Source of the DNA: Chloroflexota bacterium
Lineage (GTDB): Bacteria; Chloroflexota; Dehalococcoidia; JACVQG01
NCBI GenBank assembly: GCA_016210545.1
Contig: JACQTY010000166.1
Span: forward strand, 1-50,169
DNA length: 50,169 nucleotides
Direction of reading: 5' to 3'
Shown here: positions 32,256-41,210 of the stretch, piece after piece
How the letters are laid out: every line of letters begins with the position of its first letter
How positions within the stretch are numbered: the first letter of the stretch is position 1
The notes under the pieces: model-generated
Databases searched by the model: none
What the model saw: the letters and a program-made list of their open reading frames with translations, nothing else
What the model was told of the DNA's origin: nothing
Made by a program: the position numbers and the translations under genes

Positions 32256-32374
32256 GGCGGCCTGTGACCAATGGTGGGGTAGGTAAGAGAAGGACGCCGA
32301 CCAGACTTACTGCCCGGTACTTCGAGTTTCCTTCGGGAGGCACAGTGAAGCCGCAGGAAGAACCAAGAAGGGAC

Positions 32375-32518
32375 ATGCCCGAATACGTGCCTGGGTTGCC
32401 TGTTGGTGAGATTGTTAGGGCGCTCAACAGTGTCCGGTTCGGGGAGGTGCGCATAGTCCGTCAGAACGCGAACATCGTACAGATCGACAAGATTGAAAAG
32501 ACGCGGTTCACTCAGTAA
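32375..32518 (+). CDS. DUF2292 / YezD family small protein
   Basis: A 47-residue protein: LPVGEIVRALNSVRFGEVRIVRQNANIVQIDKIEKTRF. The 'I...L..v.yGsV.i...dg.ivQIdk.EK.Rf' pattern is that of YezD/DUF2292, small proteins that occur beside sulfate and cysteine assimilation genes. I use the ATG at 32375, with AAGAAGGGA just ahead; the longer frame from 32264 runs over the operator leader. It is the first gene of the Pst-like/CysH operon, which fits a sulfur link. Molecular function unknown. Confidence 0.8.
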   Translation: MPEYVPGLPVGEIVRALNSVRFGEVRIVRQNANIVQIDKIEKTRFTQ

Positions 32519-32606: not shown

Positions 32607-33647
32607 ATGAAGGGTCTCATCAAGGGTAAGCAGGCTTTATCGTTGAGCGCAATACTCGGAATACTGATGGTCATCAGCGCTTGCGCCCCCAGGGAGCCGG
32701 TATCTTCAACACCAGCACCGTCCCAGCCGGCCTCTTCATCTCTGCCGGCGCGGCCATCGGGAACAGGCCCCACGCTAACGGGTAAGATCACTGTGTCCGG
32801 CGCCTGGGCGCTCTATCCTATGATGGTGAAATGGGCTGAGGAGTTCCAGAGGACAAACCCCGGCGTGAAGATCGATGTGTCGGCGGGGGGAGCGGGAAAG
32901 GGAATGGCTGACGCCTTGTCCGGCCTGGCGGACATCGGCATGGTAAGCCGCGAGGTTTACCCTGTGGAGATCGACAAAGGGGCGTTCTACGTGCCATCGG
33001 TGATAGATGCCGTGGTCGCGGTTGCCAGCGCCGGGAATCCGTTCAAAGACGATATCCTGGCCCGGGGCATAGGGAGGCAGGCTTTCACTGGTATCTGGAT
33101 AAACAGGAACGTAGCTAACTGGAGGGACGTTTTCCCGGGGGCAAAGGCTTCCGGCAAGACCGACATTCACGTTTATACCCGCAGCGACGCCGCGGGCGCG
33201 CCGGAGACCTGGGCCAAATACCTGGGTGCGAAACAGGAAGACCTCCTCGGGACCGGCGTCTATGGCGACCCGGGACTGGCCGAGGCAGTGCGGAGAGACC
33301 CGCTGGGGATTGGCTTCAACAACATCAGCTATGCCTATGACATCAGGTCCGGGAAACAGGTGGATGGATTGGTGGCCATCCCCATCGACGTCAACGAGAA
33401 TGGCAAGATCGACCCTGAGGAGGCAGTTTACGGCTCCCTGGACGACATAACCCAGGCAATAGCCAAGGGGGTCTATCCATCCCCCCCGGCCAGAGAGCTC
33501 AATCTGGTGACCCTCCGGGAGTTCAAGGGAGTCACCAGGGAGTTCATCAAGTGGATTCTAACCGAGGGGCAGAAATATGCTCCGGAGGCGGGCTATATTC
33601 CGCTGTCTCAGGCAAGGGTGGATAGCCAGCTTCCCAAACTGCGGTAA
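32607..33647 (+). CDS. Pst-like ABC transporter substrate-binding lipoprotein with altered anion site
   Basis: Periplasmic-type binding lipoprotein of the PstS superfamily, 346 residues. Signal LSLSAILGILMVISAC has a lipobox, followed by a Ser/Pro linker. The fold is PstS-like (ISGAWALYP-type opening after KITV, ADIGMVSREVYP, FTGIWINRNVANWRDVFPG, FIKWILTEGQKYAPEAGYIPLS). The loops that bind phosphate in PstS with Ser/Thr hydroxyls are changed: the first reads GAWALYP, the second AGGAGKG, and the third, normally DGSGT, reads SDAAGAPETW. It should therefore bind a different ligand; given the operon, a sulfur oxyanion is the best guess, tungstate or molybdate less so. ATG 32607 is preferred to the longer frame from 32493. 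Confidence 0.85.
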   Translation: MKGLIKGKQALSLSAILGILMVISACAPREPVSSTPAPSQPASSSLPARPSGTGPTLTGKITVSGAWALYPMMVKWAEEFQRTNPGVKIDVSAGGAGKGMADALSGLADIGMVSREVYPVEIDKGAFYVPSVIDAVVAVASAGNPFKDDILARGIGRQAFTGIWINRNVANWRDVFPGAKASGKTDIHVYTRSDAAGAPETWAKYLGAKQEDLLGTGVYGDPGLAEAVRRDPLGIGFNNISYAYDIRSGKQVDGLVAIPIDVNENGKIDPEEAVYGSLDDITQAIAKGVYPSPPARELNLVTLREFKGVTREFIKWILTEGQKYAPEAGYIPLSQARVDSQLPKLR

Positions 33648-33729: not shown

Positions 33730-34602
33730 GTGTTTGATTTGATATCTAAGAGAAGACTGGCAGACCTCGTATCGACGAGGCTGATGCTGGCGGCGACGGC
33801 CCTTGTCGGCGTCACCGTCCTGTTCATAGCCGTCATGCTTTTCTTGAAAGCCAGGCCTATTCTGGCAACAAACTCGTTGGGCGACCTGTTCCTTTCGTCT
33901 TCGTGGCGTCCCTCCAGGGGCGAGTTTGGCCTGTTCCCCTTTATCATGGGCACCCTGTGGGTGACGGTCCTGGCGGGCATTATTGCTCTGCCGGTCAGCA
34001 TTTTGGGCGCCCTTTACATTACGGAATATGCTCCGCCCAGGGTGCGGGCTGTAGCCAAGCCCGTCGTTGACGTTCTGGCCGGAATCCCGCCGGTAGTGTA
34101 TGGCGTCTGGGGCCTGGTGGCGTTGTCCATCGGCGGCATCGCGATCGGGTTCAACGTGCTGTCCGGCAGCATAGTGTTGGCGATAATGGTAATACCGGTG
34201 ATACTGGGTGTGTCGGAGGAGGTATTCCGGATGGTGCCCCAGGATGTCAAGGAGGCATCTCTGGCAGTGGGGGCCACCAAATGGGAGACAGCCAGGAATG
34301 TGGTCATACGGAGCTCCCTGCCGGGGCTGGCGGCGGCGACGATCCTGGGTTTCTCCCGCGCCTTTGGCGAGACTATGGCGGTGCTCATGGTGGTGGGGAA
34401 CATCGCCAGGGTACCCTCATCGCCGTTGGACCCGGCATACCCCCTGACAGCGCTGATCGCCAACAACTACGGAGAGATGATGTCCATTCCCCTCTACGAC
34501 TCGGCCATCCTGCTGGCGGCCCTGGTGCTGCTTCTGGTAGTGCTGTTCTTCAACATCGCCGCAAGGCTGGTCCTGATAAAGGTCCAGCAGAAGTGGGCCT
34601 AG
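33730..34602 (+). CDS. Pst-like ABC transporter permease (PstC type)
   Basis: Inner-membrane permease, 290 residues, with about six helices. The cytoplasmic coupling loop carries the binding-protein-dependent permease motif: EEVFRMVPQDVKEASLAVGATKWETARNVVIRSSLPG (EAA-loop type, split here). The N-terminal part (SSWRPSRGEFGLFPFIMGTLWVTVLAGIIALP) matches PstC. It would pair with the next permease and the ATPase. The start is GTG 33730; the ribosome site is weak. The stop is directly followed by the ATG of the next gene (no gap), so they are coupled. Normal features of PstC; ligand selectivity comes from the binding protein. Confidence 0.9.
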   Translation: MFDLISKRRLADLVSTRLMLAATALVGVTVLFIAVMLFLKARPILATNSLGDLFLSSSWRPSRGEFGLFPFIMGTLWVTVLAGIIALPVSILGALYITEYAPPRVRAVAKPVVDVLAGIPPVVYGVWGLVALSIGGIAIGFNVLSGSIVLAIMVIPVILGVSEEVFRMVPQDVKEASLAVGATKWETARNVVIRSSLPGLAAATILGFSRAFGETMAVLMVVGNIARVPSSPLDPAYPLTALIANNYGEMMSIPLYDSAILLAALVLLLVVLFFNIAARLVLIKVQQKWA

Positions 34603-35454
34603 ATGCAGCGGAGGAAGACAGAAGAGGCCGTCTTCAAAGGCTTGATGATAGCCTCGGTGTCCATCGTGGCGGCGGGCCTGCTTACCATCGTGGCCGTGAT
34701 AGCCTGGAAGGGTGTTCCGGCCCTCAGCATTGGCATGATAACGCAGACCCCTAAAGGCGGGTTCTACCTGGGCAAAGAGGGGGGCATCCTGAACGCAATT
34801 GTTGGCTCTCTCTACCTGGCCGGGGGGGCTACGTTGCTGGCCCTGGTCATCTCTCTGCTGGTGGCCCTCTTTCTACAGCGGGAATACATAGGTAAGAGTC
34901 GGTGGGCTGGCGTTGTCCGTTTGTCGCTGGACGTCCTGTGGGGGGTCCCGTCCATCGTCTACGGCGCCTTCGGTTTCGTCATTATGGTCTATCTGGGCAT
35001 GAGGGCGTCACTGCTGGGGGGCATTATAGTCCTGACGCTCCTGGAGATACCCATCATGGCCAGGGCCCTGGACGAGGTATTGAGAGCGGTGCCCAGGGAG
35101 TTGAAAGACGCCTCATATGCCCTCGGGACGACGCGTCTGGAGACCAGTTTGAACGTCGTGACCAGGCAGGTATTGCCCGGGATCTTGACCGCCGTGTTAC
35201 TGGCCTTCGGCCGGGGGATCGGCGACGCCGCTTCGGTGCTATTCACCGCCGGATATACGGACCGCATCCCGACCTCATTGCTAGACCCGGTGGCCTCCCT
35301 GCCGTTGGCCATATTCTTCCAGCTTGGCACGCCGTTCCCCGAGGTGCAGGCCCGGGGCTACGCCTCGGCGGTCGTCTTGCTGGTGATTGTACTTCTGATC
35401 GCGGTGGGATCCCGGGTACTGTCCCGGAGACTCACCAAATACGTGGTCAAGTAG
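34603..35454 (+). CDS. Pst-like ABC transporter permease (PstA type)
   Basis: Second permease subunit, 283 residues and six predicted helices. Typical PstA parts: FYLGKEGGILNAIVGSLYLAGGATLLALVISLL, WGVPSIVYGAFGFVIMVYLG, the EAA loop DEVLRAVPRELKDASYALGTTRLETSLNVV and the following GILTAVLLAFGRGIGDAASVLFTAG. It begins immediately after the stop of the first permease and ends 17 bases before the ATPase gene. It forms the heterodimeric channel with the preceding protein. Confidence 0.9.
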   Translation: MQRRKTEEAVFKGLMIASVSIVAAGLLTIVAVIAWKGVPALSIGMITQTPKGGFYLGKEGGILNAIVGSLYLAGGATLLALVISLLVALFLQREYIGKSRWAGVVRLSLDVLWGVPSIVYGAFGFVIMVYLGMRASLLGGIIVLTLLEIPIMARALDEVLRAVPRELKDASYALGTTRLETSLNVVTRQVLPGILTAVLLAFGRGIGDAASVLFTAGYTDRIPTSLLDPVASLPLAIFFQLGTPFPEVQARGYASAVVLLVIVLLIAVGSRVLSRRLTKYVVK

Positions 35455-35471: not shown

Positions 35472-36467
35472 ATGAACGACATCTGCCTCCGCATCCACGG
35501 TCTTAACGTCAGCTATGACGGGCACACGGCCCTCAAGAATATATATCTTGACATCCCGCACCGGCAGATCACCGCCATCATCGGGCCATCGGGCTGCGGC
35601 AAAACGACCCTGCTCCGGTCCATTAACCGGCTGATAGACCTCACCGACGGGGCCAAGATCCGCGGCGAGATATGGCTGGACGGACACAACGTGATGAGCG
35701 ACAGGGAGGACGTCACCTCGATAAGGAAAAGGATAGGGCTGATCTCCCAGAAGCCATCCCCGTTGCCCATGTCCATATACGACAACGTGGCCTACGGCCC
35801 TCGCATCCACGGGATGCGGGATAGGAAAGAGCTGGACAAGACGGTGCGTAGCTGCCTGGAGACTGCCGGGCTGTGGACCGAGGTGAAGGACAGGCTCCAG
35901 TCACCGGCAACCAGGCTATCGGTGGGGCAACAGCAACGTCTGTGTCTGGCCCGGAGCCTGGCCGTCAGGCCTGAGGTCCTCTTGTGCGACGAGCCTACAT
36001 CGGCGCTCGACCCGGTGTCGTCGCAGAACATCGAGAATAGGCTCATCGAACTCAAAAAGGACTACACCATCGTGATAGTCACCCATAACATCCACCAGGC
36101 GATGAGGCTCGCCGATTACGTCGTCCATCTCTATCTGGGCGAACTGGTGGAACACGGCCCGGCCAGCGAGGTGTTCCAGAGGCCCAAGCAGGACCGCACC
36201 CGGGCCTATATCAACGGCACTGTCCTTACGAAGCCACGGACCGACGTTGAGATCAACCTGAAGGGGAAGGTGTGCCCCTTGAATTTCGTCTTCGCCAAAG
36301 CGGCGCTGGAGAACCTGGAGATCGGGCAGGTGCTCAAGGTAATAGTCGACTACCCGACGGCGATAACCGAGGTGCCCCGGGCCATGGAGTACGATGGCCA
36401 TAAGGTGCTGGGGGTGAAGCAGCTTAACGAGACCGATTGGGAGGTAATCATACAGAAACGAGAATAG
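35472..36467 (+). CDS. PstB-type ABC ATPase fused to a C-terminal TusA/SirA-like sulfur-carrier domain
   Basis: A 331-residue fusion. Residues 1-250 are a PstB-like ATPase: Walker A GPSGCGKTTLL, Q-loop region GLISQKPSPLPMS, signature LSVGQQQRL, Walker B LLCDEPTSALDP and the switch His in VTHNIHQAM. Residues 260-331 are not part of PstB: VEINLKGKVCPLNFVFAKAALENLEIGQVL, then VIVDYPTAITEVPRAMEYDGHKVLGV and WEVIIQKRE. This is the TusA fold pattern, with Cys in CPLN at the place of the CPxP persulfide cysteine. TusA proteins relay sulfur and are found with thiosulfate and other sulfur transporters. The fusion links the pump physically to sulfur handling. The ATG at 35472 follows the permease stop by 17 bases; a longer frame opening at 34902 is an artefact overlapping it. 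Confidence 0.9.
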   Translation: MNDICLRIHGLNVSYDGHTALKNIYLDIPHRQITAIIGPSGCGKTTLLRSINRLIDLTDGAKIRGEIWLDGHNVMSDREDVTSIRKRIGLISQKPSPLPMSIYDNVAYGPRIHGMRDRKELDKTVRSCLETAGLWTEVKDRLQSPATRLSVGQQQRLCLARSLAVRPEVLLCDEPTSALDPVSSQNIENRLIELKKDYTIVIVTHNIHQAMRLADYVVHLYLGELVEHGPASEVFQRPKQDRTRAYINGTVLTKPRTDVEINLKGKVCPLNFVFAKAALENLEIGQVLKVIVDYPTAITEVPRAMEYDGHKVLGVKQLNETDWEVIIQKRE

Positions 36468-36559: not shown

Positions 36560-37285
36560 TTGAGAGACAATGTTAGCCTGGAAGAACTGAAGGAGTTGGT
36601 CAACGGCCTGAACTTCGCCGAGAAGGTCGACCGCTCCCTGAGACTCATCGATGAGGCATACAAGGAGTACGGCGACCGCCTGGTGGTCGCCAACAGCCTG
36701 GGCAAGGACTCCGTGGCAGTATGGCACCTGGCCAAGCGGGTGTCGCCGGAGATCCGCGGCTTCATAGTCACCACCCGCTACAAGCCAAAGGAGACCGTGG
36801 AGTTCATGAACCGGGAGGTCACCCGCTATCCGGAGTTGAAGGTGTTCCGTAACGACGCGCCGATACCGGAAGAGCTTTACCGCACCGACCCCGACCGCTG
36901 CTGCGACGTGCTCAAGGTGCAGCCGGTGCAGTGGGCCATAGAGCAGATGAACGTCGGCTGCTGGGTAACCGGGCTGCGCTGCACCGAGGGCAGGACCCGC
37001 ACCGACTACCGCGAGATCGAGGAGCGGGACGAGGGGCTCATCAAGCTGAACCCCATCCTGCTGTGGCATGAGCGCGAGGTGTGGCAGTACCTGGCCATCA
37101 ACCAGGTGCCGGTCAACCCACTGTACGCCAAAGGGTATCGCTCGCTAGGCTGTCTGCCGTGCACCCGCATCACCAACGACGCCAATGAGCGCGCCGGTCG
37201 CTGGGTGGGTACCAGCAAGTGCGGCGGCGAGTGCGGCATTCATACCCGTCCCTTGAAGGTCGGCGCTTCAAGTCAAAGGAGCTAG
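36560..37285 (+). CDS. cysH: CysH-type phosphoadenylyl/adenylyl-sulfate reductase
   Basis: Reduces activated sulfate (APS or PAPS) to sulfite. Residues around 45-60 have the PP-loop VANSLGKDSVAVWHL. Downstream come RCCDVLK, TGLRCTEGRTRTDY and LGCLPCTRIT, so the CC...CxxC set for a [4Fe-4S] cluster is present; this favours APS as substrate, as in assimilatory APS reductases. KCGGECGIH at the end is the catalytic ECGIH motif. The length of 241 residues is normal. The start is TTG 36560, with AAAGGAAGG ahead; the longer frame from 36437 reads through a CCTCTCCC-GGGAGAGG hairpin and is not coding. It is the sixth gene of the operon begun by the DUF2292 gene. Confidence 0.92.
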   Translation: MRDNVSLEELKELVNGLNFAEKVDRSLRLIDEAYKEYGDRLVVANSLGKDSVAVWHLAKRVSPEIRGFIVTTRYKPKETVEFMNREVTRYPELKVFRNDAPIPEELYRTDPDRCCDVLKVQPVQWAIEQMNVGCWVTGLRCTEGRTRTDYREIEERDEGLIKLNPILLWHEREVWQYLAINQVPVNPLYAKGYRSLGCLPCTRITNDANERAGRWVGTSKCGGECGIHTRPLKVGASSQRS

Positions 37286-37287
37286 CT

Positions 37288-37623
37288 TTGCAGTTGGACA
37301 AGGTTCGCGAATGGCTGCCTTTTTTCCGGGGGCACGGCATCTGCTCCAAATGTCACCTTCGTGTGGAGTTCACCGGCGTCCCTCCGGGGAATCCCGCCGA
37401 AGAACTCATAGCAAAGGTAGCTGGCAGCCGCAGGTCGGTGTCGTTGCACTGGCTGGAGGAGCGGCTGGCCGATGCCCTCTACTATGCCGAACTGGACAAG
37501 GGCGGCGGGGTGAACGACATCGGAGTGTGGGGCTGCGCTGTGTTCTGCAAGGAGTCGGCCCGAATGATAGGGGAGATGCGACCGGAGTTTGCCGTGGTGC
37601 GAGACGCAAACTCCGGTCACTAG
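37288..37623 (+). CDS. Unknown CxxC protein at the end of the sulfur operon
   Basis: A 111-residue soluble protein, not recognised. It starts at TTG 37288 with AAAGGAG six bases ahead, overlapping the end of cysH, so it is clearly co-expressed. Visible features: GICSKCHLRVEF with a CxxC near the N-terminus, a predicted helical middle (NPAEELIAKVAGSRRSVSL, LEERLADALYYAELDK) and WGCAVFCKESARMIGEM with two more cysteines. The four cysteines could bind zinc or an iron-sulfur cluster, or take part in sulfur transfer or electron supply to the reductase. A terminator follows. Confidence 0.75.
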   Translation: MQLDKVREWLPFFRGHGICSKCHLRVEFTGVPPGNPAEELIAKVAGSRRSVSLHWLEERLADALYYAELDKGGGVNDIGVWGCAVFCKESARMIGEMRPEFAVVRDANSGH

Positions 37624-40325: not shown

Positions 40326-40372
40326 CGGCGCCCGGATTAGTTTGAAATTTGGTGCTTGGTGTTTGGAGCTTC
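40295..40372. terminator. Long-range inverted repeat between convergent genes
   Basis: GAAGCTCCAAAC (40295-40306) pairs perfectly with GTTTGGAGCTTC (40361-40372). It spans the ends of the metallopeptidase and rhodanese genes and may act as a bidirectional terminator; the sequence style (ccaaacctcaaacc) is that of a dispersed element. Confidence 0.5.
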
Positions 40373-41210
40373 ACTTCTCTATTGGCGCCCCTACCAGATT
40401 GCCCCACTCGTTCCAGGAGCCGTCGTATACTCGCACCTCACTGTTGCCCAGTACGTACTTGAGAACGAACCAGGAGTGAGAGGCGCGCACCCCCAGACGG
40501 CAGTAGGTAATGACTTCTTTGTCTCTGGTGATGCCCAGCGACCGGTATAGTTGCTCCAGATCCTCCAGAGACTTGAACGACCCATCCTCCTTGAGGGCTT
40601 CTTCCCAGGGACGGTGGGCAGCGCCGGGGATGTGGCCCAGCCGCCGTATGCCGGTCTGCGGATGCTCGGGGTGGTCCCGGCCCTCGAACTCCTCTCGCGT
40701 GCGGACGTCGAGTAGCGCAACCGATGGCTTGCCGATAACGCGCAGCACCTCCTCGCGAGTAGCCCGCACGGAAGGGTCAGTCCCTTGGACCTGATAGCGG
40801 GTGGGCGTGACCGAGGTCCTTTTCCGGGTCAGTGGCCGCCCCTCCTTCTCCCATTTTTTCTTGCCGCCGTTGAGCAGTCGCACGTCCTTGTGCCCGAACA
40901 GCTTCATGACGAAGAAGGCCCACGTGGCGTGGCGGTTAAGGCCATCGCCATAGAGTACGACGGCGCTGTCTTCAGCGATGCCCGACCTGGACATAAGGGC
41001 CGAGAACTGCTCCTGGGACGGGACATCGGCCCGTACCGGGTGCTCCAGGTCCTGCTCCCGCTCCCACCCTACCGCCCCGGGGATATGTCCTCGCAGATAC
41101 TCGGAGACGTTTCCGTTCACCTCCACCACGCGAAGGCCGGGGTCATCGAGATGGCGGGCCAGCCATTCCGTCTCTACGATAGCCTCCGGATGTGCATAGC
41201 GGGTCGACAT
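40371..41210 (-). CDS. Two-domain rhodanese (thiosulfate/3-mercaptopyruvate sulfurtransferase)
   Basis: Moves sulfane sulfur from thiosulfate or mercaptopyruvate to cyanide or other acceptors. It has two rhodanese domains: the first (LRVVEVNGNVSEYLRGHIPGAVGW) is inactive, and the second (VALLDVRTREEFEGRDHPEH, GHIPGAAHRPW) carries the active loop TYCRLGVRASHSWF, with the catalytic Cys and a CRxGxR form that suggests thiosulfate as substrate. The length of 279 residues is standard. GGGAGG lies six bases before the ATG. It sits 3 kb from the sulfur operon but on the opposite strand; a functional link is possible, as both handle sulfur. Confidence 0.93.
   Translation of the reverse strand: MSTRYAHPEAIVETEWLARHLDDPGLRVVEVNGNVSEYLRGHIPGAVGWEREQDLEHPVRADVPSQEQFSALMSRSGIAEDSAVVLYGDGLNRHATWAFFVMKLFGHKDVRLLNGGKKKWEKEGRPLTRKRTSVTPTRYQVQGTDPSVRATREEVLRVIGKPSVALLDVRTREEFEGRDHPEHPQTGIRRLGHIPGAAHRPWEEALKEDGSFKSLEDLEQLYRSLGITRDKEVITYCRLGVRASHSWFVLKYVLGNSEVRVYDGSWNEWGNLVGAPIEK

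Follow-up and report, generated by a model that had tools for sequence, protein, structure and literature searches.

A Pst-derived, sulfur-linked ABC importer with a TusA-superfamily domain fused to its ATPase

Introduction

The window analysed here is a 50,169-nucleotide stretch of DNA from a Chloroflexota bacterium of the Dehalococcoidia (assembly GCA_016210545.1, contig JACQTY010000166.1, positions 1 to 50,169), and it encodes an apparent phosphate importer whose ATPase does not stop where PstB normally stops. The original prediction, made from the DNA letters, held that the extra residues form a TusA-like domain with VCPLN in place of the CPxP motif, and that the fusion either ties a Pst-family importer directly to sulfur transfer or lets it sense the sulfur state of the cell. 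This locus raises two questions: whether the fusion is a real protein, and why the motor of a Pst-type importer would carry a sulfur-carrier domain.

A TusA domain on a PstB-type ATPase

The fusion is encoded by a single open reading frame on the forward strand (35472-36467, ATG start at 35472), and its 331-residue product divides into a PstB-type ABC ATPase (35472-36221), a linker of about nine residues (36222-36248), which neither the TIGR00972 nor the PF01206 match covers, and a TusA domain (36249-36464). The first part is assigned by its profile match, its intact motifs and its position in the NBD tree described below. The PstB profile TIGR00972 spans residues 6-250 with 340.6 bits, just under its cut-off of 343.2, while the CysA model TIGR00968 reaches 126.5 bits against a cut-off of 342.75. 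Walker A, the signature LSVGQ, Walker B and the H-loop are all intact, and a structure alignment gives 48% identity to E. coli PstB. When the full-length model was used as a Foldseek query, the best 50 matches listed were all ABC ATPases.

The C-terminal domain belongs to the TusA superfamily PF01206, as its score, the order of its fold and its Cys-Pro pair agree, and the claim that the stretch past the PstB end is TusA-like therefore stands. PF01206 covers residues 260-329 (36249-36458) with 64.2 bits and an E-value of 1e-17, and it scores 67.9 bits on the isolated tail, against a cut-off of 28.6. Among solved structures, TM0983 (1jdq, E 2.7e-12) matches the tail best, followed by the TusA half of the TsuA-TsuB chain (8k1r/8j4c). 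An AlphaFold2 monomer model of the full-length protein, built from a 31-sequence alignment and with a mean pLDDT of 77, folds residues 259-328 into strand 259-262, helix 270-280, strand 287-293, helix 297-307, strand 311-317 and strand 322-328, which is the TusA order of elements.

The active-site motif is CPLN, as the original prediction had read it, with Cys268 encoded by TGC at 36273-36275. Cys268 and Pro269 are invariant across the 31 aligned fusions, and every fused copy read has CP[LYF]N with a sole exception (locus L210, SPEN); the asparagine replaces the second proline of CPxP in all fused copies. The segment PR.xE..G is near-invariant, as are the cysteine, the first proline and the asparagine. 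The fused domain stays below the NCBIfam cut-offs for TusA (25.6 against 78 bits), TsuB (32.5 against 147.5) and YedF (45.3 against 79). The CPxN motif excludes it from TusA proper, the CPxP sulfurtransferase, rather than from the superfamily, because CPxN, CPYT and CPFV also occur in free members of PF01206. It shares profile, topology, active-site cysteine and first proline with TusA, TsuB and YedF, but differs from them in its asparagine, its scores against their models and its place on an ABC ATPase. The exception at L210 (5792-6784, reverse strand) is an intact archaeal fusion and a natural Cys-to-Ser variant.

The ATPase-TusA fusion is a genuine gene and no accident of assembly: dozens of genomes, each assembled independently, carry the same pair of domains in one protein, which rules out chance and misassembly.

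The operon in the window

Upstream of the fusion, all on the forward strand, lie genes for a small OscA-like protein with a C-terminal DUF2292 (32264-32518; PF10055, 42.5 bits, above cut-off), a PstS-like substrate-binding lipoprotein with an altered anion pocket (32607-33647; PF12849, 98.5 bits), a PstC-type permease (33730-34602; TIGR02138, 245.7 bits, above cut-off) and a PstA-type permease (34603-35454; TIGR00974, 189.0 bits, cut-off 193.45). The DUF2292 protein scores 28.4 bits on the OscA model NF033785, whose cut-off is 85, and at L033, another Dehalococcoidia locus, a homologue precedes the operon. In Pseudomonas, OscA homologues have been associated with the transport of sulfate and with starvation for sulfur (PMC2996968).

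Directly after the fusion comes a forward-strand gene for a CysH-like protein of the APS/PAPS reductase family (36560-37285; PF01507, 139.8 bits; NF002537, 167.3 bits, cut-off 154), which in an alignment to 2goy shows the CC...CxxC and ECGIH motifs and an intact SLGKDS PP-loop. A 134-residue protein (37219-37623, forward strand) overlaps the end of this gene; it has no Pfam match, and homologues lie near CysH in L014, L062 and L033. A double-rhodanese protein, a possible source of sulfane sulfur, is encoded 3.9 kb downstream on the reverse strand (40371-41210). The expectation that the surroundings would not be plain pho/pst holds: sulfur genes adjoin the importer, and neither PhoU nor PhoBR was found between 32 and 38 kb of the window.

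An altered anion pocket

The binding protein is closest in fold to PstS structures but departs from them where phosphate is held. Residues T10, S38 and T141 of E. coli PstS are replaced by W/F, A and A in all aligned members, fused and unfused, and S139 is lost in many; in the window protein T10, S38, S139 and T141 have become W, A, A and A. It also scores well below the PstS cut-offs (TIGR02136, 95.4 against 206.6 bits; TIGR00975, 68 against 205). The same genome encodes a second pst operon on contig C175, in which inspection recognises PhoU-like and PhoB/PhoR-like genes, and its pho-linked PstS retains Ser/Thr at the phosphate-hydroxyl positions. A further candidate discriminator, D56 of E. 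coli PstS, was dropped, since the pho-linked PstS also has a serine there. Plain phosphate import was rejected on the altered pocket, the separate pho-linked paralogue and the sulfur context, and the importer clade is probably not for phosphate.

Two family loci carry an apparently circularly permuted binding protein. At L071 (4887-5915, genome G180) the second half, with the RSD..GA lobe, precedes the first in one reading frame and is followed by PstC and PstA, and the pieces at L072 (4615-5343, genome G349) have the same permuted order.

Distribution and origin of the fusion

A search for the same two-domain architecture, which the original prediction had proposed, finds it in Dehalococcoidia and in the archaeal Methanoperedens order. 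A genome scan with the ATPase tail gave 33 loci, almost all from Candidatus Methanoperedens and ANME-2-like archaea, with a few from Dehalococcoidia. Full-length fusions are present in 31 of the 186 genomes of the Methanoperedens order, separated from ordinary PstB by a sharp gap in score, and a further fusion in this order is split across two contigs (genome G800, L211). Within the Dehalococcoidia the family binding protein occurs in six of 393 genomes and the fusion in five, namely the window genome and those of L033, L057, L059 and L062. Three of these fusions are intact; the gene is broken in its TusA part in L014/L062 (G001) and in its NBD part in L015/L059 (G014). The interruptions in L059 and L062, taken as they stand in these assemblies, may reflect sequencing error or decay. 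A search of viral contigs for relatives of the fusion found none.

Relatives occur in 15 Chloroflexota genomes besides that of the window, among 400. Wherever their contigs are long enough to show it, they keep the order SBP-PstC-PstA-PstB, and all 13 PstBs that are readable stop before the TusA domain. An NBD tree of 61 rows (31 fused, 13 unfused and 17 other Chloroflexota PstBs) joins the fused and unfused ATPases in one clade; the branch between this clade and the other PstBs has a length of 0.8 changes per site and support of 100/100. The fused ATPases form a single clade (99/96) that splits into Dehalococcoidia and archaeal branches. This clade is nested among the unfused ATPases, which indicates that a pre-existing importer gained the TusA domain once. 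Judged from the tree, the importer then moved between domains of life.

In one archaeal genome, G879, the whole operon is duplicated on one chromosome; the two copies (L208 and L209) are near-identical, and both are flanked by IS transposases. Such IS-flanked copies are a possible route for transfer between domains of life. In both copies an IS1-like element cuts off the TusA domain just before the CPxN motif. A protein of about 100-130 residues with the motif GV.HIR.LKRINF recurs near the Methanoperedens operons (L045 130-420; L047 1772-2161; L048 2948-3268; L053 1418-1714, reverse strand; L054 23-319; L038 1896-2249) and, in the four copies scored, has no Pfam match above cut-off.

Sulfur context and likely cargo

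The predicted tie between importer and sulfur is borne out by the neighbours of both unfused and fused operons. At the unfused Chloroflexota locus L102, the operon reads cobA-cysH-sat-SBP-pstC-pstA-pstB. At most unfused loci whose upstream DNA could be read, Rrf2 regulators are encoded close to the SBP; their best specific model is CymR, below its cut-off. TauE/SafE proteins adjoin the pump at L089 and L100. Four of the five fused Dehalococcoidia have CysH next to the operon, the contig of the fifth being short. The constant company of cysH and DUF2292 that had been supposed does not extend further: this neighbourhood was found in Dehalococcoidia only, and CysH was not found on the contigs of the archaeal fusions. 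At the archaeal locus L210, CysK and a CysE-like hexapeptide protein are encoded upstream. The models for CysA, CysT and CysW of the SulT system fall far below their cut-offs for the importer subunits. The cargo of this Pst-derived importer, as far as context tells, is most likely sulfate or a close sulfur oxyanion.

Every genome checked among the fused Methanoperedens (ten) and the unfused Chloroflexota (six) has ATP sulfurylase (Sat). In the five fused Dehalococcoidia, one of them the 94% complete window genome, it went undetected. In the window genome SulP and CysD were also not found, and CysN-like GTPases appeared only below cut-off. Sulfate use by the fused Dehalococcoidia hosts is thus not secured, because Sat was detected in none of them and the window genome has neither CysD nor a CysN above cut-off. 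Either the CysH-like protein activates sulfate in these hosts, or another sulfur oxyanion is imported, or Sat is missing from the assemblies. The CysH-like proteins of the window, L033, L057 and L062, whose hosts are among those without detected Sat, have an intact S[LF]GKDS PP-loop together with CC/CxxC and ECGIH. The CysH of L102, which shares its operon with Sat, has lost the S[LF]GKDS PP-loop. On these motifs the CysH-like protein could possibly combine sulfate activation and reduction in one protein.

Free proteins with the CPxN motif

The CPxN form of TusA also occurs as a free protein. On contig C187 of the window genome (L107, L002), a free CPMN TusA follows a small siroheme-type NIR_SIR sulfite reductase, in a cluster that also holds an Rrf2 regulator, ThiF and two cysteine synthases; a JAB protein is encoded farther along. 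In Methanoperedens, free CPxN proteins lie directly beside the small NIR_SIR reductase at L142, L143 and L151, and also at L152; at L153 one is found with CysK, ThiF, ThiS and JAB. In M. nitroreducens (L140, L141) the motif of the reductase-linked TusA is CPFP. A TusA tree, built from a short alignment, groups the fused domains with free CPxN proteins and TsuB, away from most CPxP proteins, weakly (84/89). Operons that combine a sulfate ABC transporter, PAPS reductase, sulfite reductase, ThiS, JAB and E1 have been reported always to hold a SirA/TusA protein (Iyer et al. 2006, PMC1779556).

A proposed sensor on the motor and its rivals

The best explanation, to which we give a probability of a little under one half (about 0.48), is that the system is a Pst-derived importer of sulfate or another sulfur oxyanion in which the TusA domain borne by the ATPase reports to the motor on the cell's pool of reduced sulfur. 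When downstream assimilation is charged, the cysteine of the domain may be persulfidated, or a cysteine-dependent partner may be bound; the charged domain, positioned like the regulatory domains of MetN and ModC, would then keep the two motors apart and slow import. When sulfur is short, the cysteine would be free and the pump would run. The fusion with its conservation and single origin, the sulfur neighbours and the altered pocket are observed; sulfate as cargo, persulfidation and inhibition are the steps that we infer here. More tentative is a bolder form of this reading, that sulfate is imported by a branch of the Pst family not recognised before and that the charge on the TusA cysteine gates the pump in the Dehalococcoidia/ANME-2d lineage, which would make it the first ABC importer under the control of a sulfur-carrier domain.

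Several features suggest a sensor. Firstly, the TusA domain sits at the C-terminus of the NBD after a short linker, as do the C-terminal ATPase domains of the MetN and ModC importers, which are sites of transinhibition (PMC10710835). Secondly, the domain is an accessory, since unfused importers exist and L210 keeps the fusion with serine for cysteine; its loss to the IS element in L208 and L209 likewise speaks for dispensability. Finally, sulfate cannot donate a persulfide, and this, together with the dispensability of the domain, leads us to favour feedback sensing over the direct sulfur transfer that had also been proposed. The near-invariance of the cysteine, the first proline and the asparagine is in keeping with a sensor too, but the strictly kept cysteine itself fits transfer as well as it fits sensing. 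The serine of L210 also counts against the sensor reading, in that the cysteine can be dispensed with in at least this copy.

The main rival to sensing, possible though we regard it as doubtful, is docking or delivery: the TusA domain would dock or serve CysH, the sulfite reductase or the ThiF/ThiS/JAB cysteine route as a carrier sited at the membrane. The free CPxN proteins beside the small reductase and, at L153, beside CysK, ThiF, ThiS and JAB fit such a role, as do the weak grouping of the fused domain with free CPxN forms and TsuB and the constant presence of SirA/TusA in sulfate-assimilation operons. The same genomes, however, already have a free CPxN TusA, and a carrier tethered to a low-copy pump makes poor catalytic sense. 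Nor is CPxN the exclusive form beside the reductase, given the CPFP motif in M. nitroreducens.

A lesser rival, which we consider improbable, is a thiosulfate importer in the manner of TsuA-TsuB, in which the fused cysteine would accept sulfane sulfur at the inner face of the membrane. The natural TsuA-TsuB fusion as second-best structural match of the tail and the double-rhodanese protein of the window are in keeping with it, and so is the failure to detect Sat in the five fused Dehalococcoidia, since a substrate already reduced would need no such enzyme. An unfused relative (L102), however, shares its operon with Sat and CysH, and so with sulfate reduction, and Sat is present in every fused Methanoperedens checked. 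Moreover, ABC cargo exits through the permeases, away from the far end of the ATPase, and the TsuB model score is far too low.

It is less probable still that the TusA domain is a neutral passenger without function in the pump. The IS1-like insertion in the archaeon with two near-identical operons, the serine of L210 and the interrupted domain of L062/L014 would all be tolerated by a passenger, but about 36 genomes from two domains of life retain the domain, and in them CPxN and PR.xE..G are near-invariant. Least of all do we expect plain phosphate import by a pump that was fused to TusA by accident. Pst models score highest for all subunits and the binding protein has a PstS-like fold, but the lost pocket hydroxyls, the separate pho-linked pst operon and the sulfur genes next door make this reading very unlikely.

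Relation to known systems and significance

With feedback sensing as the preferred reading, the importer can be set beside the systems that it resembles. It has the gene order and subunit folds of PstSCAB (TIGR00972, TIGR02138, TIGR00974, TIGR02136) but differs in its pocket, its sulfur neighbours, its own clade, the TusA domain on its ATPase and a locus with no PhoU adjoining. With SulT (CysPTWA, Sbp) it has a probable cargo and pathway in common, yet its ATPase and permeases, by their model scores, belong to another subfamily. MetNI and ModBC also have an extra C-terminal domain on the ATPase (PMC10710835); here that domain has the TusA fold rather than that of the MetN C2 or ModC domain, and the proposed signal is cysteine-borne sulfur rather than the cargo. 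In the SirA-containing sulfate-assimilation operons (PMC1779556), TusA/SirA is described as a separate protein, whereas the importer of the window has it built into its ATPase. TsuA-TsuB (8k1r, 8j4c) likewise joins a TusA-family domain to a sulfur importer, but TsuA is a YeeE-type channel and the importer described here is an ABC pump with PstC/PstA permeases. We read the system, in sum, as an importer of Pst descent, linked to sulfur, whose motor bears a sulfur-carrier domain. In the literature searched, a scope outside which most subscription journals lay, no description was found of a TusA-ABC fusion or of a Pst-type sulfate importer.

Because the family models assign the system to the phosphate importers, annotation would label it as one. 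For Methanoperedens, Yu et al. (2018, PMC6286981) listed only putative, uncertain sulfate transporters. If the importer does carry sulfate, it would be a concrete candidate for the route by which sulfate enters the methane-oxidising Methanoperedens, and the TusA domain on an ABC motor would directly link the sulfur-carrier charge of the cell to import.
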